The notes under the pieces were generated by a model that saw nothing but the letters and a program-made list of their open reading frames with translations, was not told the DNA's origin and searched no databases. Below, piece by piece: positions 9,510 through 20,233 of a DNA stretch of 64,000 nucleotides. The DNA is from an uncultured Alphaproteobacteria bacterium. GTDB lineage: Bacteria; Pseudomonadota; Alphaproteobacteria; HIMB59; GCA-002718135. Where the stretch lies: NCBI GenBank assembly GCA_902620425.1, contig CACNHX010000001.1, forward strand, positions 350,903-414,902, given 5' to 3'. Each line of letters opens with the position of its first letter. Position 1 is the stretch's first letter. The translations under genes and the position numbers were made by a program.

Positions 9510-9699
9510 TATGAAAAAATAGCACTTTTTGATAATCTTATAAATATAAAAATTGCTTTAAATTGGTAAATAAGTGCGACTATTTTATCTATCAAAAGAA
9601 AGAGGGATTTAATTTGTAATAAGATCTTTAATACTTTAATTTAATTGTATTATTGATTTATTCACTTATAAATTAATGCATAAATTATTTGGAGGAATT

Positions 9700-10680
9700 A
9701 TGAAAAAAATCTTTGCTGTCATTGCTTTATTTTTTGCTTTTGCATCTACTTCAGCAGTAGCAAAAAATGATTACAGCTGTGATAAGAAATTTATATTTTT
9801 TCCAGGTGGTCCTGAAGGTGGCCCATTTGGAACTATCGTTTACAATGGTGCAGTAGCTGCTGCTGAACACACTGGTTGTGAAGTAGATTACTACTGGTCA
9901 CAGTGGAACTCAGAAATCATGATTAAACAATTTAAAGAAGCTGTTGCTCTACAGCCTGATGGAATTGCAATCTATGGTTTTCCAGGAGACGCTGCAATGA
10001 GACCTATCATTCAAGAAGCAAGAGAAATGGGTATAGTAATTACTACTATGAATACACCTCTCCCTGATCTTGAAGCAGAATATAAAACTGAAGGATTTGG
10101 TTATGCAGGGGCAGATCTATTTGATGCTGGATTCAATCTAGGTAAAAAAGCTGTTGAAGTTTGTGGTCTACAAGCTGGAGATAAAGCATTTATCTGGGGT
10201 CTTGCAAGTATGCCAAATAGAGGAGAAAGAACTAAAGGTGCAATAGCTGGTGTTGAAGCAGCAGGTGTTGAGGTAGTTTATCAAGAAATTCCTGATAATG
10301 TAAACTCAGATGCATCTCAGGGAACTCCTATGTACGTCGCTACTTATAGTGCAAATCCTGATATCAAAATGGCTATTACAGATCATGGTGGATTAACTGC
10401 AAGTTTACCAACATATATGAAGGCTGCAGGTCATGGTACTGAAGAAGTATGTGGTGCTGGATTTGATTTATCAGCTCCAATTGTTGATGGAATTAATTCT
10501 GGATACATTGACGTTGTAATTGATCAACAACCATTTATCCAAGGATATATGCCAATTGTTCAGTTATTCCTTAGTACAAAATATGGAATGGCTGGATTAG
10601 CAATGGATACTGGTGCTGCATTTGTTACAGCTGATAACGTTGATGCTGTTGCTCCATTAGCAGCAGTACAAATCAGATAA
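9700..10680 (+). CDS. Sugar ABC transporter substrate-binding protein (ribose/periplasmic-binding type 1)
   Basis: Signal peptide MKKIFAVIALFFAFASTSAVA; GGAGG at 9691-9695 upstream of ATG at 9700 (ORF-track start 9676 looks too early). Confidence 0.85.
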   Translation: MKKIFAVIALFFAFASTSAVAKNDYSCDKKFIFFPGGPEGGPFGTIVYNGAVAAAEHTGCEVDYYWSQWNSEIMIKQFKEAVALQPDGIAIYGFPGDAAMRPIIQEAREMGIVITTMNTPLPDLEAEYKTEGFGYAGADLFDAGFNLGKKAVEVCGLQAGDKAFIWGLASMPNRGERTKGAIAGVEAAGVEVVYQEIPDNVNSDASQGTPMYVATYSANPDIKMAITDHGGLTASLPTYMKAAGHGTEEVCGAGFDLSAPIVDGINSGYIDVVIDQQPFIQGYMPIVQLFLSTKYGMAGLAMDTGAAFVTADNVDAVAPLAAVQIR

Positions 10681-10694
10681 ATTAAATATTATAG

Positions 10695-10717
10695 CCTGCC
10701 TTATTTTATAAGGCAGG
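10695..10717 (+). terminator. Intra-operon stem-loop between substrate-binding protein and ATPase genes (attenuating terminator-like)
   Basis: CCTGCCTTA-TTTTA-TAAGGCAGG perfect 9-bp stem followed by TTTATTTTTT. Confidence 0.7.
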
Positions 10718-10727
10718 TTTATTTTTT

Positions 10728-11495
10728 ATGGCTGAAGAACTCTTAAAATTACAAAATATTTACAAAAACTTTGGAAACGTAAAAGTTTTAAAAGATGTGA
10801 ATATCAAAATAAACAAAGGTGAAGTAGTAGCTTTAATCGGTGATAACGGAGCTGGAAAATCTACACTTATTAAAGTTATAACTGGAGTTCATAGTCCAAA
10901 CTCGGGAAAAGTTTTTTTTAAAGAAAAAGAAGTACAAATTAAATCAGTTGCTCAATCAAGAAAAATGGGGATTGAAGCAGTGTATCAAGAAAGAGCATTA
11001 TGTGATCAGCAAGAATTATACAGAAATATCTTTGCAGGAAGAGAAATTACAAATTCATTAGGTTTTTTGGATATTAAAAAACAAAGAAAAGAAGCAGAAA
11101 AAATTTTACGCGACTATATAGGCTTTACTTCAAAAGCTATAACAGTTGACTCTCAAGTAATGGGACTGTCTGGTGGTGAAAAACAAGGTGTAGCTTTCGG
11201 TAGATCATTGTATTTTAATTCTGATTTAATCGTATTAGATGAACCAACAATGGGATTATCGATACAAGAAACAGAAAAAGTTCTTAATTTTGTAAAAGGT
11301 TTAAAGAATGAAAACAAATCTGCAATATTTATCGATCATAATATAATACACGTATATGGTGCTGCAGATAGATTTATTATTTTAGATAGAGGTGAAGTTG
11401 TTGGGGAATTTAATAAAGAAGATATTTCAAGAGAAGAACTTGTTCAGAAAATGATTCAACTTCATGAATCAGGAAAAATAAAAGTGGAAGATTAA
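10728..11495 (+). CDS. Sugar ABC transporter ATP-binding protein
   Basis: Walker A GDNGAGKSTL, signature LSGGEKQGVAFGRSL, Walker B LIVLDEPTMGL. Confidence 0.92.
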   Translation: MAEELLKLQNIYKNFGNVKVLKDVNIKINKGEVVALIGDNGAGKSTLIKVITGVHSPNSGKVFFKEKEVQIKSVAQSRKMGIEAVYQERALCDQQELYRNIFAGREITNSLGFLDIKKQRKEAEKILRDYIGFTSKAITVDSQVMGLSGGEKQGVAFGRSLYFNSDLIVLDEPTMGLSIQETEKVLNFVKGLKNENKSAIFIDHNIIHVYGAADRFIILDRGEVVGEFNKEDISREELVQKMIQLHESGKIKVED

Positions 11496-16590: not shown

Positions 16591-17877
16591 CTAGTCTCTA
16601 ATTGAATAAGCTACTACTCCAACCTCGGCTTTATCAGTGCCAAGTTTTTCAGCTTCTTCACTAATTCTTAATCCCATAATATTTTTAATTAGATATATTA
16701 CAATATATGAGAAAACAAAAACAAAGATACACACTGAAGCAACACCCAATAATTGAATTGAGTATGATGCATCAGGATTAGTTAGAGGGACAACTAATGT
16801 TCCCCAAATACCTGCAAACATATGTACAGGTATTGCGCCAACAACATCATCTAGTTTTAATGAGTTTAAGAAGTTAGTTCCATAATACATTATTACTCCA
16901 CCAACTGCTCCAATTCCAATTGCAAGCAATGGACTAGGCATCAATGGCTCAGCTGTTATTGAAACTAAACCTGCAAGAGCTCCATTAAGCATCATAACAA
17001 TATCAGTTTTGCCACCAATCAATCTTGTTATTGCGGCACCAGCCATACATCCACCACAAGCTGCAAGTTGAGTATTCATGAAAATTTTTGACATTGCTGT
17101 TGCATCTTCATAAGAACCTAATGCAAGTTGGGATCCACCATTAAAGCCATACCACCCCATCCATAAAATAAATGTTCCTAATGTAACTAAAGGAATGGAC
17201 GATGGAGCAAATGGGGCCATATTAGCTGGTTCTCCACTCACACTGAATCTTCCAAGTCTTGGACCTAAAAGAATTACTCCTGCTAAAGCTGCAGAACCAC
17301 CACAAGCGTGAACTAATGTCGACCCGGCGAAATCTGCAAATCCTAGGGCGTCTAACCATCCTCCACCCCATTCCCAACCCATTTGAATTGGATAAATTAC
17401 TCCTCCAAGTACCGCTGCAAATGTAAAGAAAGGCCAAATTTTTATTCGCTCTGCTACAGCACCTGATACAATAGACACAGTAGCACAAACAAATAAAGCT
17501 TGAAAAAACCAGTCCGAAGCATCTGAGTAACCTGTTTCCATAGAAGTATTATCAGTCCATATGGATGGTGTACCAACATAGCCTCCTTCAGGGACAGAAT
17601 ATCCAAGATTGTATCCAATTAAATAGAAAACAATTGAAACTATTGCGAATTTTCCAATATTTTTAGCAGCTATAGTTGATACACTTCTGGTGGTAACAAG
17701 TCCTGATTCTAAAAATAGAAATCCTGCAGCCATCCACATGACTAAGAACCCACAAACTAAAAAAGAAAATGTATTAAATATATATGCTACTTCTGCATCA
17801 ACCTCTGCTCTCACAGAAGAACTTAGCAACAAAATAAAAGAGAGAATTGTAAAAAGACTAAAAAATTTTTTATACAT
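16591..17877 (-). CDS. amt: Ammonium transporter (Amt family)
   Basis: VMWMAAGFLFLESGL, GSTLVHACGGSAALAG, GWYGFNGGSQLA, GAIPVHMFAGIWGT motifs; GGAG SD favours ATG at 17877 over the ORF-track start 17889. Confidence 0.93.
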   Translation of the reverse strand: MYKKFFSLFTILSFILLLSSSVRAEVDAEVAYIFNTFSFLVCGFLVMWMAAGFLFLESGLVTTRSVSTIAAKNIGKFAIVSIVFYLIGYNLGYSVPEGGYVGTPSIWTDNTSMETGYSDASDWFFQALFVCATVSIVSGAVAERIKIWPFFTFAAVLGGVIYPIQMGWEWGGGWLDALGFADFAGSTLVHACGGSAALAGVILLGPRLGRFSVSGEPANMAPFAPSSIPLVTLGTFILWMGWYGFNGGSQLALGSYEDATAMSKIFMNTQLAACGGCMAGAAITRLIGGKTDIVMMLNGALAGLVSITAEPLMPSPLLAIGIGAVGGVIMYYGTNFLNSLKLDDVVGAIPVHMFAGIWGTLVVPLTNPDASYSIQLLGVASVCIFVFVFSYIVIYLIKNIMGLRISEEAEKLGTDKAEVGVVAYSIRD

Positions 17878-17966
17878 TATTAACTCCATATAAAATTATA
17901 GACACATAACTAACCTTTAGTTACGCATTGCATCATGCTTAGCTATGGAAATTAATTACTAAGATC

Positions 17967-18017
17967 CGCGTTCCTTCGGGTACACCTACTTCCGATTTGC
18001 ATGCTGCAAATTGAACG
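17967..18017 (-). ncRNA. Glutamine riboswitch aptamer (glnA RNA motif), promoter-distal copy of tandem pair before amt1
   Basis: Minus strand CGUUCA-AUUUGCAGCAUGCAAAU-CGGAAGUA-GGUGUACC-CGAAGGAACGCG: P1 CGUUC/GAACG, P2 AUUUGCA/UGCAAAU, conserved CGGAAGUA and GAAGGAACG, P3 GGU/ACC. Confidence 0.88.
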
Positions 18018-18034
18018 ATTTTATAACTTTGCAT

Positions 18035-18085
18035 GCGTTCCTTCGACTTTCGTCTACTTCCGTCACTCTAAAGGAGTGATGAACG
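18035..18085 (-). ncRNA. Glutamine riboswitch aptamer (glnA RNA motif), promoter-proximal copy of tandem pair before amt1
   Basis: Minus strand CGUUCA-UCACUCCUUUAGAGUGA-CGGAAGUA-GACGAAAGUC-GAAGGAACGC. Confidence 0.88.
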
Positions 18086-18093
18086 TGATTTGA

Positions 18094-18153: not shown

Positions 18154-18528
18154 CTAATTTTCTAAGCTCATTTTATTAAAAAATGTACCTTCTTTTTTTA
18201 ACCAACTATTAATCATATCAAGAAAATTATTACTTAAGTAGTAATTCTTAATTCGTTTATCAGATTTACTTTGTTCTTTTACAAAAATATTTTTTTCCAA
18301 GGCTTCGTTTAAAATTGATTGAATAGAAGATCTAGAACCAATAGATTTAGGTATATTTGCACAAATTGTTTCAAATGAAATTCCATTTAATCTATTATTT
18401 TCATAGATCTCAAGAGAGATAACATGGTGTAAAATTGATTTAAATAAAAATTTTGAAACATAATCTTCAGAAAAGAAGCTTGAATATATGTTTCTTTTTT
18501 TTTCTTTAATAATTTCTGTTTCAGTCAT
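18154..18528 (-). CDS. Small putative winged-helix/MarR-like DNA-binding protein (124 aa)
   Basis: GISFETICANIPKSIGSRSSIQSILNEALEKNIFVKEQSKSDKRIKNYYLSN resembles an HTH-wing with RxxxxYYLS end; SD GGGAGGG before ATG. Confidence 0.5.
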   Translation of the reverse strand: MTETEIIKEKKRNIYSSFFSEDYVSKFLFKSILHHVISLEIYENNRLNGISFETICANIPKSIGSRSSIQSILNEALEKNIFVKEQSKSDKRIKNYYLSNNFLDMINSWLKKEGTFFNKMSLEN

Positions 18529-18626: not shown

Positions 18627-19913
18627 TTAGTCTCTGATGCTATAAGCCATTACGCCTACTTCAGATTTATCAGTACCAAGTTTTTCAGCTTCTTCACTTA
18701 TTCTAATACCAAAGAGCATTTTCATGATGTACCAAATTATAAATGATACGACAAAAACGAAAACGTTAATTGCTATTATACCGTAAAGTTGAGCTCCAAA
18801 ACTTGCTGCGCTGTTTGAAATTGGAACAACTAATGTTCCAAAAATTCCAGCAAAACCGTGTACAGGAATTGCTCCAACAACATCATCAATTTTAAGTGAT
18901 ATTAAAAGTCTTGTACCATAGAAGACAATTAATCCACCAATAGCACCAATGATCACTGCCAAGAGTGGAGAAGGAGCTAATGGTTCTGCAGTAATTGCTA
19001 CCAAACCACCTAATGCTCCGTTAAGCATCATAACAACATCTGTTTTACCAGTTACTAGTCTTGAAATTACTGCACAAGCCATTACACCTGCACCAGCTGC
19101 CAAGTTAGTATTAATATATATTGTTGCTACTGCTGTAACATCATCAAATGTACCCATTGCAAGTTGTGATCCACCATTAAATCCGAACCATCCAAGCCAT
19201 AGGATAAATACACCAAGAGTTGCAAGAGGTATTGAAGAATTTGCAAAAGGCTCCATTGGAGCTGCTTCACCACTATCAGTGAATCTTCCTAATCTTGGGC
19301 CTAATAAAATTGCACCAGCAAGTGCTGCTGCTGCTCCTGCACTATGTACTAGAGTTGAACCAGCAAAATCTGAGAAACCAGCTTCCGCTAAGTATCCTCC
19401 GCCCCACTGCCAACCCATTTCGATTGGATAAATGAAACCAGTTAATAAAGCACAAAAAATAAAGAATGGCCAAATTTTGATTCTTTCAGCTAGTGTTCCA
19501 GATACAATTGAGCATGTTGTTGCACAAAATACCATCTGAAAGAACCAGTCAGAACCGTCTGAATAACCTGTATCAAGAGCGCTACCATCACTCCAAGGAA
19601 GTGGAGATCCGATAAAACCGCCTGCAGGGATTCCATATGCCATATTGTATCCTACTAACCAGAACATTAAACCAGCTATTGAATATAAGCCTATATTTTT
19701 TGCAGCAATTGTTGCTACACTTTTGGACGTAACAAGTCCTGATTCAAGCATTGCAAATCCTGCTGCCATCCACATGACCAAGAACCCAGATACAAGAAAT
19801 AGGAATGTATTTAAAATGTATTGCACTTCACCATCAACTTCGGCTCTTGCATATGAACTAAAGAGCATAAAGACGGCAATGATGCTAATAAAATATATAG
19901 ATTTTTTTAACAT
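18627..19913 (-). CDS. amt: Ammonium transporter (Amt family), second copy
   Basis: Same Amt motifs as 16591..17877 (GSTLVHSAGAAAALAG, GWFGFNGGSQLA, GAIPVHGFAGIFGT); GGAGG SD before ATG. Confidence 0.93.
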   Translation of the reverse strand: MLKKSIYFISIIAVFMLFSSYARAEVDGEVQYILNTFLFLVSGFLVMWMAAGFAMLESGLVTSKSVATIAAKNIGLYSIAGLMFWLVGYNMAYGIPAGGFIGSPLPWSDGSALDTGYSDGSDWFFQMVFCATTCSIVSGTLAERIKIWPFFIFCALLTGFIYPIEMGWQWGGGYLAEAGFSDFAGSTLVHSAGAAAALAGAILLGPRLGRFTDSGEAAPMEPFANSSIPLATLGVFILWLGWFGFNGGSQLAMGTFDDVTAVATIYINTNLAAGAGVMACAVISRLVTGKTDVVMMLNGALGGLVAITAEPLAPSPLLAVIIGAIGGLIVFYGTRLLISLKIDDVVGAIPVHGFAGIFGTLVVPISNSAASFGAQLYGIIAINVFVFVVSFIIWYIMKMLFGIRISEEAEKLGTDKSEVGVMAYSIRD

Positions 19914-20004
19914 TAATCCTCCATTATAAATTTCACGTTACATGACTCACATTGAGTCATGCGTTACTTTTCATGCTTAGCTATGGAAATTAAATAATAA
20001 GATC

Positions 20005-20056
20005 CGCGTTCCTTCGGTTTAAACCTACTTCCGATTTGCTTAAGGCAAATTGAACG
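20005..20056 (-). ncRNA. Glutamine riboswitch aptamer (glnA RNA motif), promoter-distal copy of tandem pair before amt2
   Basis: Minus strand CGUUCA-AUUUGCCUUAAGCAAAU-CGGAAGUA-GGUUUAAACC-GAAGGAACGCG. Confidence 0.88.
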
Positions 20057-20073
20057 ATTTAATAACTTTGCAT

Positions 20074-20125
20074 GCGTTCCTTCGACTTTCGTCTACTTCC
20101 GTCACCCAAAAAAGAGTAATGAACG
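20074..20125 (-). ncRNA. Glutamine riboswitch aptamer (glnA RNA motif), promoter-proximal copy of tandem pair before amt2
   Basis: Minus strand CGUUCA-UUACUCUUUUUUGGGUGA-CGGAAGUA-GACGAAAGUC-GAAGGAACGC; P2 shows C-G to U-G and U-A to U-G changes relative to the amt1 copy. Confidence 0.87.
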
Positions 20126-20233
20126 TGAAAACTGATTTAGTTTAATATTAATTTTTAGTAAGATTATAATCGTTAACATTAATATGCAAAAAATGCATAT
20201 AACAATATTTCCAAGTTATATGGGAAATATTAG

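Follow-up and report, generated by a model that had tools for sequence, protein, structure and literature searches.

Introduction

Type 1 glutamine riboswitches (glnA RNA, Rfam RF01739) are the closest described relatives of the leaders reported here, with which they share the aptamer, its core, tandem copies, and association with amt, GS, and PII genes (Weinberg, 2010; Ames and Breaker, 2011; Klaehn, 2018). Ammonium transporters, GS, and PII were described behind glnA RNAs from marine metagenomes, and tandem copies were noted (Weinberg, 2010; PMC2864571). Glutamine doublets (157) and triplets (4) have been tabulated (Sherlock et al., 2022; PMC9481103), and a glutamine riboswitch was published in a methylophage and a pelagiphage (PMC9004378). 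The aptamer class binds L-glutamine and functions as a riboswitch in cyanobacteria, and the characterized switches, gifB and DP type, turn genes on with glutamine (PMC6316151). The same 2018 review described the class as restricted to cyanobacteria and its amt- and glnA-linked copies as restricted to environmental samples.

Two other systems are similar in part. The tandem glycine riboswitch has two aptamers, one ligand, one output, and inter-aptamer pairing, as predicted here, but its aptamer is unrelated to the glutamine aptamer, and cooperativity of the present leaders is hypothetical. Like the proposed riboswitches, the GlnD-PII system of Proteobacteria senses glutamine inside the cell and regulates GS as well as ammonium uptake. 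Its sensor is a protein enzyme, whereas the sensor here would be an RNA in the leader, in a family from which GlnD is absent.

Compared with known RF01739 members, the present ones have an alphaproteobacterial host rather than a cyanobacterial one, four tandem pairs in one genome, and a predicted helix (P0) of their own; OFF control is expected, whereas ON control was shown for gifB. The novelty is less than was supposed in an earlier reading of this DNA (the sequence-only reading), because the amt association and tandem copies of the motif had already been published from marine metagenomes, and doublets are numerous in the tabulation cited above. The RNA class, tandem form, and ammonium transporter link are known; the host range and the control of a whole nitrogen regulon in one group are new. 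A literature search, with many subscription papers outside its coverage, found no description of the four-target regulon or of the GlnD contrast.

Identification of Tandem Glutamine Aptamers

The window (the whole 64 kb stretch of DNA that was analyzed) was compared with all of Rfam using cmscan at gathering thresholds, with a cut-off of 35 bits for RF01739. RF01739 (Glutamine) was the sole Rfam family matched. It gave four full-length matches, all on the minus strand, at 53.2 to 64.6 bits, which is 18 to 30 bits above the cut-off. In the amt1 leader, aptamer 1 lies at 18032..18087 (62.5 bits, E 1.9e-11, all pairs standard) and aptamer 2 at 17965..18019 (53.2 bits, E 7.3e-9). The sequence-only reading had placed two consecutive glnA RNA copies in this minus-strand leader at 17967-18085, and the matches at 18087-18032 and 18019-17965 bear this out, with borders that agree within 2 bases. 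The covariance model comparison that it had proposed put both copies above threshold, and the assignment to the type 1 glutamine aptamer class held. Pairing of P1, P2, and P3 was as it had described except in the 3' copy (aptamer 2) of amt1, where the model alignment has two non-standard P3 positions. It had listed the amt1 pair and overlooked a second one (20127-20003, minus strand) before amt2, in which aptamer 1 occupies 20071..20127 (56.6 bits) and aptamer 2 occupies 20003..20058 (64.6 bits).

All copies have a three-helix junction with the core CGGAAGUA plus GAAGGAACG. Just 6 of 385 genomes sampled across the class have any RF01739 match, so the matches found here are not due to chance. 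An RNAalifold consensus was built for 15 amt leaders of several lineages; it shows no variation in P1 and compensatory changes in the P2 stems of both aptamers. The core bases are unchanged in both copies of these leaders, which argues against the idea that one copy is a relic, or a binder of another ligand, with a single working aptamer in control. That idea can draw on the amt1 3' copy, with its lowest score and two odd P3 positions, and on the one-aptamer versions that precede CP-ATP-grasp and another amt type, but we consider it improbable.

Target Genes and Regulon

Ammonium transporter genes follow both tandem pairs of the window. The gene amt1 (16591..17877, minus strand) encodes 428 aa and matches PF00909 at 323 bits, which together with synteny substantiates the earlier naming of an ammonium transporter downstream. 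An alternative reading of amt1 starts at 17889 and gives 432 aa. Its Shine-Dalgarno sequence (SD), GGAG, was read from the sequence at 17884..17887 (minus strand). The second gene, amt2 (18627..19913, minus strand), also encodes 428 aa (PF00909, 327.7 bits). Between amt2 and amt1 lies a frame of 124 aa (18154-18528, minus strand), which is conserved at this position, with 73-99% identity, in 17 or more relatives. A Pfam search with this frame gave no match; by eye it looks like a small winged-helix regulator.

The marine host has a tiny genome (1.54 Mb, 91% complete) with a total of eight aptamers, which form four tandem pairs on amt1, amt2, glnA, and an operon for a circularly permuted (CP) ATP-grasp protein. 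The nitrogen metabolism genes with aptamers in the 5' leader are thus amt1, amt2, and glnA. The glnA pair, outside the window, is inside a glnB-glnA operon whose glnA product has Gln-synt_N and Gln-synt_C domains. The fourth pair, also outside the window, precedes an operon of CP-ATP-grasp, alpha-E, and transglutaminase proteins. A 96% complete congener has the identical four pairs with the same targets. Since the same device stands before all four targets, these would form a small regulon, and the lineage has no GlnD. NtrC was considered as an alternative regulator and rejected; the sole strong protein of the sigma-54 activator type is NtrX beside NtrY (named by position and architecture).

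In the CP-ATP-grasp leader, an upstream frame of 16-22 codons stops at the main start codon or close by in 11 of 11 readable leaders, which suggests translational coupling. This frame sits after the tandem riboswitch and often overlaps the main frame as TGATG, as at 9569-11020 (minus strand) of stretch L010 and in 11 further stretches. Some congeners have a different, more distant amt type, preceded by a single glutamine aptamer at G034:C3:49089-49146. Aptamers before the distant amt type also occur at G001:C1:46285, G011:C1:87782, and G032:C9:11232, apparently single in the match list.

Leader Architecture

Leaders of all four operon types are built alike: aptamer 1 is joined by a linker of 17-18 nt to aptamer 2, which is followed by a conserved 3' element; then come a variable hairpin (P4) and the start region. 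The 3' element is kept in all four types and in several lineages. As read from the sequence, the linker has neither a terminator nor a ribosome site, and the computed layout leaves no room for an inter-aptamer platform. The linker sequence CAUGC-AA(A)-AGUUAU is complementary to AUA(A/G)CU-A(G)A-GCAUG within the 3' element; the helix predicted from this pairing is named P0. In amt1, the 5' strand of P0 (CAUGC-AA-AGUUAU, 18023..18035, minus strand) pairs with 17946-17934, the position of the 3' strand (AUAGCU-AA-GCAUG, 17934..17946, minus strand) within the 3' element. The corresponding strands of amt2, from complementarity and RNAalifold, are at 20062..20074 and 19972..19984 (minus strand).

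Shuffling the 3' strand of P0 gave an equally stable duplex in 0/2000 cases for amt, 0/2000 for glnA, and 1/2000 for CP-ATP-grasp. P0 was also kept in the RNAalifold consensus of the 15 amt leaders, where a single sequence has lost one outer pair. Within these leaders P0 is nearly invariant and its few consistent changes are one-sided, so its support is conserved complementarity and not covariation. Considering conservation, shuffles, and consensus together, P0 is quite likely to exist; it would enclose aptamer 2 and abut P1 of aptamer 1. Such a helix around aptamer 2 suggests one shared platform for both aptamers, and one 3' platform was observed per amt leader in the RNAalifold consensus.

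Two independent switches in series, each with its own platform, would be pseudo-cooperative and gain steepness by multiplication, and glutamine doublets were tabulated in this way by Sherlock et al. (2022; PMC9481103). Amt leaders do not have an expression platform after each aptamer, the mark of such an arrangement: besides having no terminator or ribosome site, the short linker is itself part of predicted P0. We therefore regard series switches as an unlikely description of these leaders. Under the preferred reading, the linker would be too short for an output of its own, and both aptamers would feed the same one.

Hairpin P4 of amt1 (17903..17926, minus strand) lies between the 3' element and the SD and has compensatory changes among the 15 amt leaders. 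In amt2, P4 is CAUGACUCA-AUG-UGAGUCAUG (19941..19961, minus strand) and has no U-tract on the minus strand. A transcription terminator was rejected as the output of the amt leaders, since neither contains a hairpin with a U-tract on the minus strand. The glnA leader contains GGGUA...UACCC-UUUU, a possible terminator; elsewhere P4 has no U-tract.

The 3' element may have an alternative partner, predicted to be the SD in amt and the start codon in glnA. In amt1, UUUCCAUA (17944..17951, minus strand) is a tentative anti-Shine-Dalgarno candidate, which pairs with UAUGGAG at the SD; shuffled sequences paired equally well in 37/1000 cases. In the glnA version, the upstream half of the 3' element, AUUUCAUA, is complementary to the start UAUGAAAU. 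Of about 80 background initiation regions, 5-15 paired as well as or better than the leader's own SD/start region. Anti-SD pairing does not stand out clearly from this background and was rejected as proof, so occlusion of the translation start region by the 3' element is put forward tentatively. The amt1 candidate overlaps P0 by AUA, and because P0 and start pairing use these same bases, they should compete.

Other arrangements were seen in other lineages. In SAR86 and others, tandem aptamers with a 9-nt linker stand directly 5' of a short hairpin containing the SD (seven stretches). The stem of the SAR86-type hairpin changes as CAUCU/AGAUG, CACC/GGUG, and CACU/AGUG, and this is a simpler SD-occluding platform. 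Three stretches from SAR86-like genomes have triple glutamine aptamers before a predicted outer-membrane protein. Downstream of a tandem match labelled Cellvibrionales lies a hairpin that resembles a terminator, AGCCCATC-TTT-GATGGG-TTTT.

Proposed Mechanism and Direction of Control

Tandem aptamers upstream of amt point to direct sensing of glutamine by the leader. We propose that each amt leader acts in cis as a tandem glutamine riboswitch of type 1 and that its two aptamers share a single output, presumably at the level of translation; glutamine-responsive cis control of amt by the tandem leader is very probable. Glutamine, the ligand expected from the aptamer class, would upon binding decide whether the 3' element pairs within P0 or with the start region, and translation of amt would depend on this choice.

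The likelier sign is OFF at high glutamine, which would provide feedback on ammonium uptake; physiology makes this direction probable. The opposite sign, ON, would have glutamine binding stabilize P0, free the start region from the 3' element, and raise translation. Secondary-structure ensembles agree with ON in part. When both aptamers were forced, the start site was not closed; instead, P0 rose (from 0.78 to 0.97 in amt1 and from 0.14 to 0.42 in glnA), and the start became slightly freer, with start codon exposure in glnA increasing from 0.11 to 0.36. However, these shifts are small and were computed without ligand energy or tertiary contacts, and folding was rejected as an arbiter between ON and OFF. 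The known glutamine riboswitches, cyanobacterial gifB and DP, activate with glutamine (PMC6316151), which together with the rise of P0 without start closure keeps ON a serious rival. Against it, glnA and amt are nitrogen-scavenging genes and would be expected to be repressed rather than induced at high glutamine. In SAR11, AmtB and GlnA reportedly increase under nitrogen limitation (Smith, 2013), and this also counts against ON. On balance ON seems rather unlikely, and OFF is the direction that we retain.

Distribution and Contrast With the Sister Family

RF01739 matches were found in 36/37 genomes of the host's own genus and in 0/24 genomes of a sister family of the same order. The one congener without aptamers also has no amt and PII matches, so gaps are likely. 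The four targets recur throughout the genus. A scan for the exact tandem pattern in 84,980 species genomes found at least 118 stretches. The matches listed come mostly from single-cell genomes of uncultured Alphaproteobacteria, with SAR116, SAR86, and other Gammaproteobacteria labels also present; among them, the downstream gene, where nameable, is mostly glnA, amt, or CP-ATP-grasp, and most are tandem pairs ahead of one of these targets. The weakest glnA assignments (22-39 bits) are other proteins and were left uncounted.

The host order, which has two families, is probably HIMB59/AEGEAN-169, and the riboswitch-bearing family would be its second subclade. Both cultured strains named in PMC10308909 belong to one subclade; if the subclade assignment holds, that source lists no isolate of the riboswitch-bearing family. 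Amt- and glnA-linked copies thus occur in this two-family order and in genomes labelled SAR116 and SAR86.

Protein sensing of glutamine separates the two families. The GlnD_UR_UTase domain (PF08335) was found in 24/24 sister family genomes and in 0/38 own-genus genomes, among them genomes of 91% and 96% completeness. Two operons of the sister family, glnK-amt and glnB-glnA, both encode the canonical PII T-loop HTELYRGAEY. Own-genus genomes have one PII match at most, with the T-loop STGGMDANDAYDDEF, which has a one-residue insertion and retains the tyrosine at the Tyr51 column while its surroundings are replaced. The gap between glnB and glnA is 245-248 nt in the own genus, where it holds the tandem pair, versus 40-44 nt in the sister family. 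In one own-genus genome (G034:C1:54444-56884), PII adjoins a long Amt frame of 708 aa, unlike relatives, and both were possibly acquired.

We regard as possible rather than probable a wholesale sensor swap in one family of this order. In this reading, the family lost GlnD and GlnK, acquired an altered version of the uridylylated PII T-loop, and came to sense glutamine directly by RNA, through tandem riboswitches on amt, glnA, and the CP-ATP-grasp operon; its sister family, which has none of these riboswitches, retained the protein cascade. The known glutamine-sensing enzymes are absent from cyanobacteria as well, which fits a swap and is no proof of it (PMC6316151). The difference between GlnD and riboswitch is a single evolutionary contrast, not many. 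A general rule that a riboswitch means no GlnD was rejected, the distribution being mixed elsewhere. A more distant family of Alphaproteobacteria, whose sole aptamer precedes the CP-ATP-grasp operon, has a diverged GlnD in 3/4 genomes, and GlnD is present in 9 of the 29 genomes that carry tandem aptamers among the matches listed. Of 44 riboswitch-free alphaproteobacteria, 12 have no GlnD domain, and SAR11 likewise has no GlnD (PMC10030771).

Biological Significance

Glutamine riboswitches linked to amt and glnA, once known from environmental samples only (PMC6316151), gain a host. P0, if real, is a new way of joining two aptamers to a single output. The sister families would represent a protein and an RNA sensor of the same metabolite, replacing each other in abundant ocean bacteria, and the replacement of a protein regulator by an RNA during genome streamlining becomes testable.
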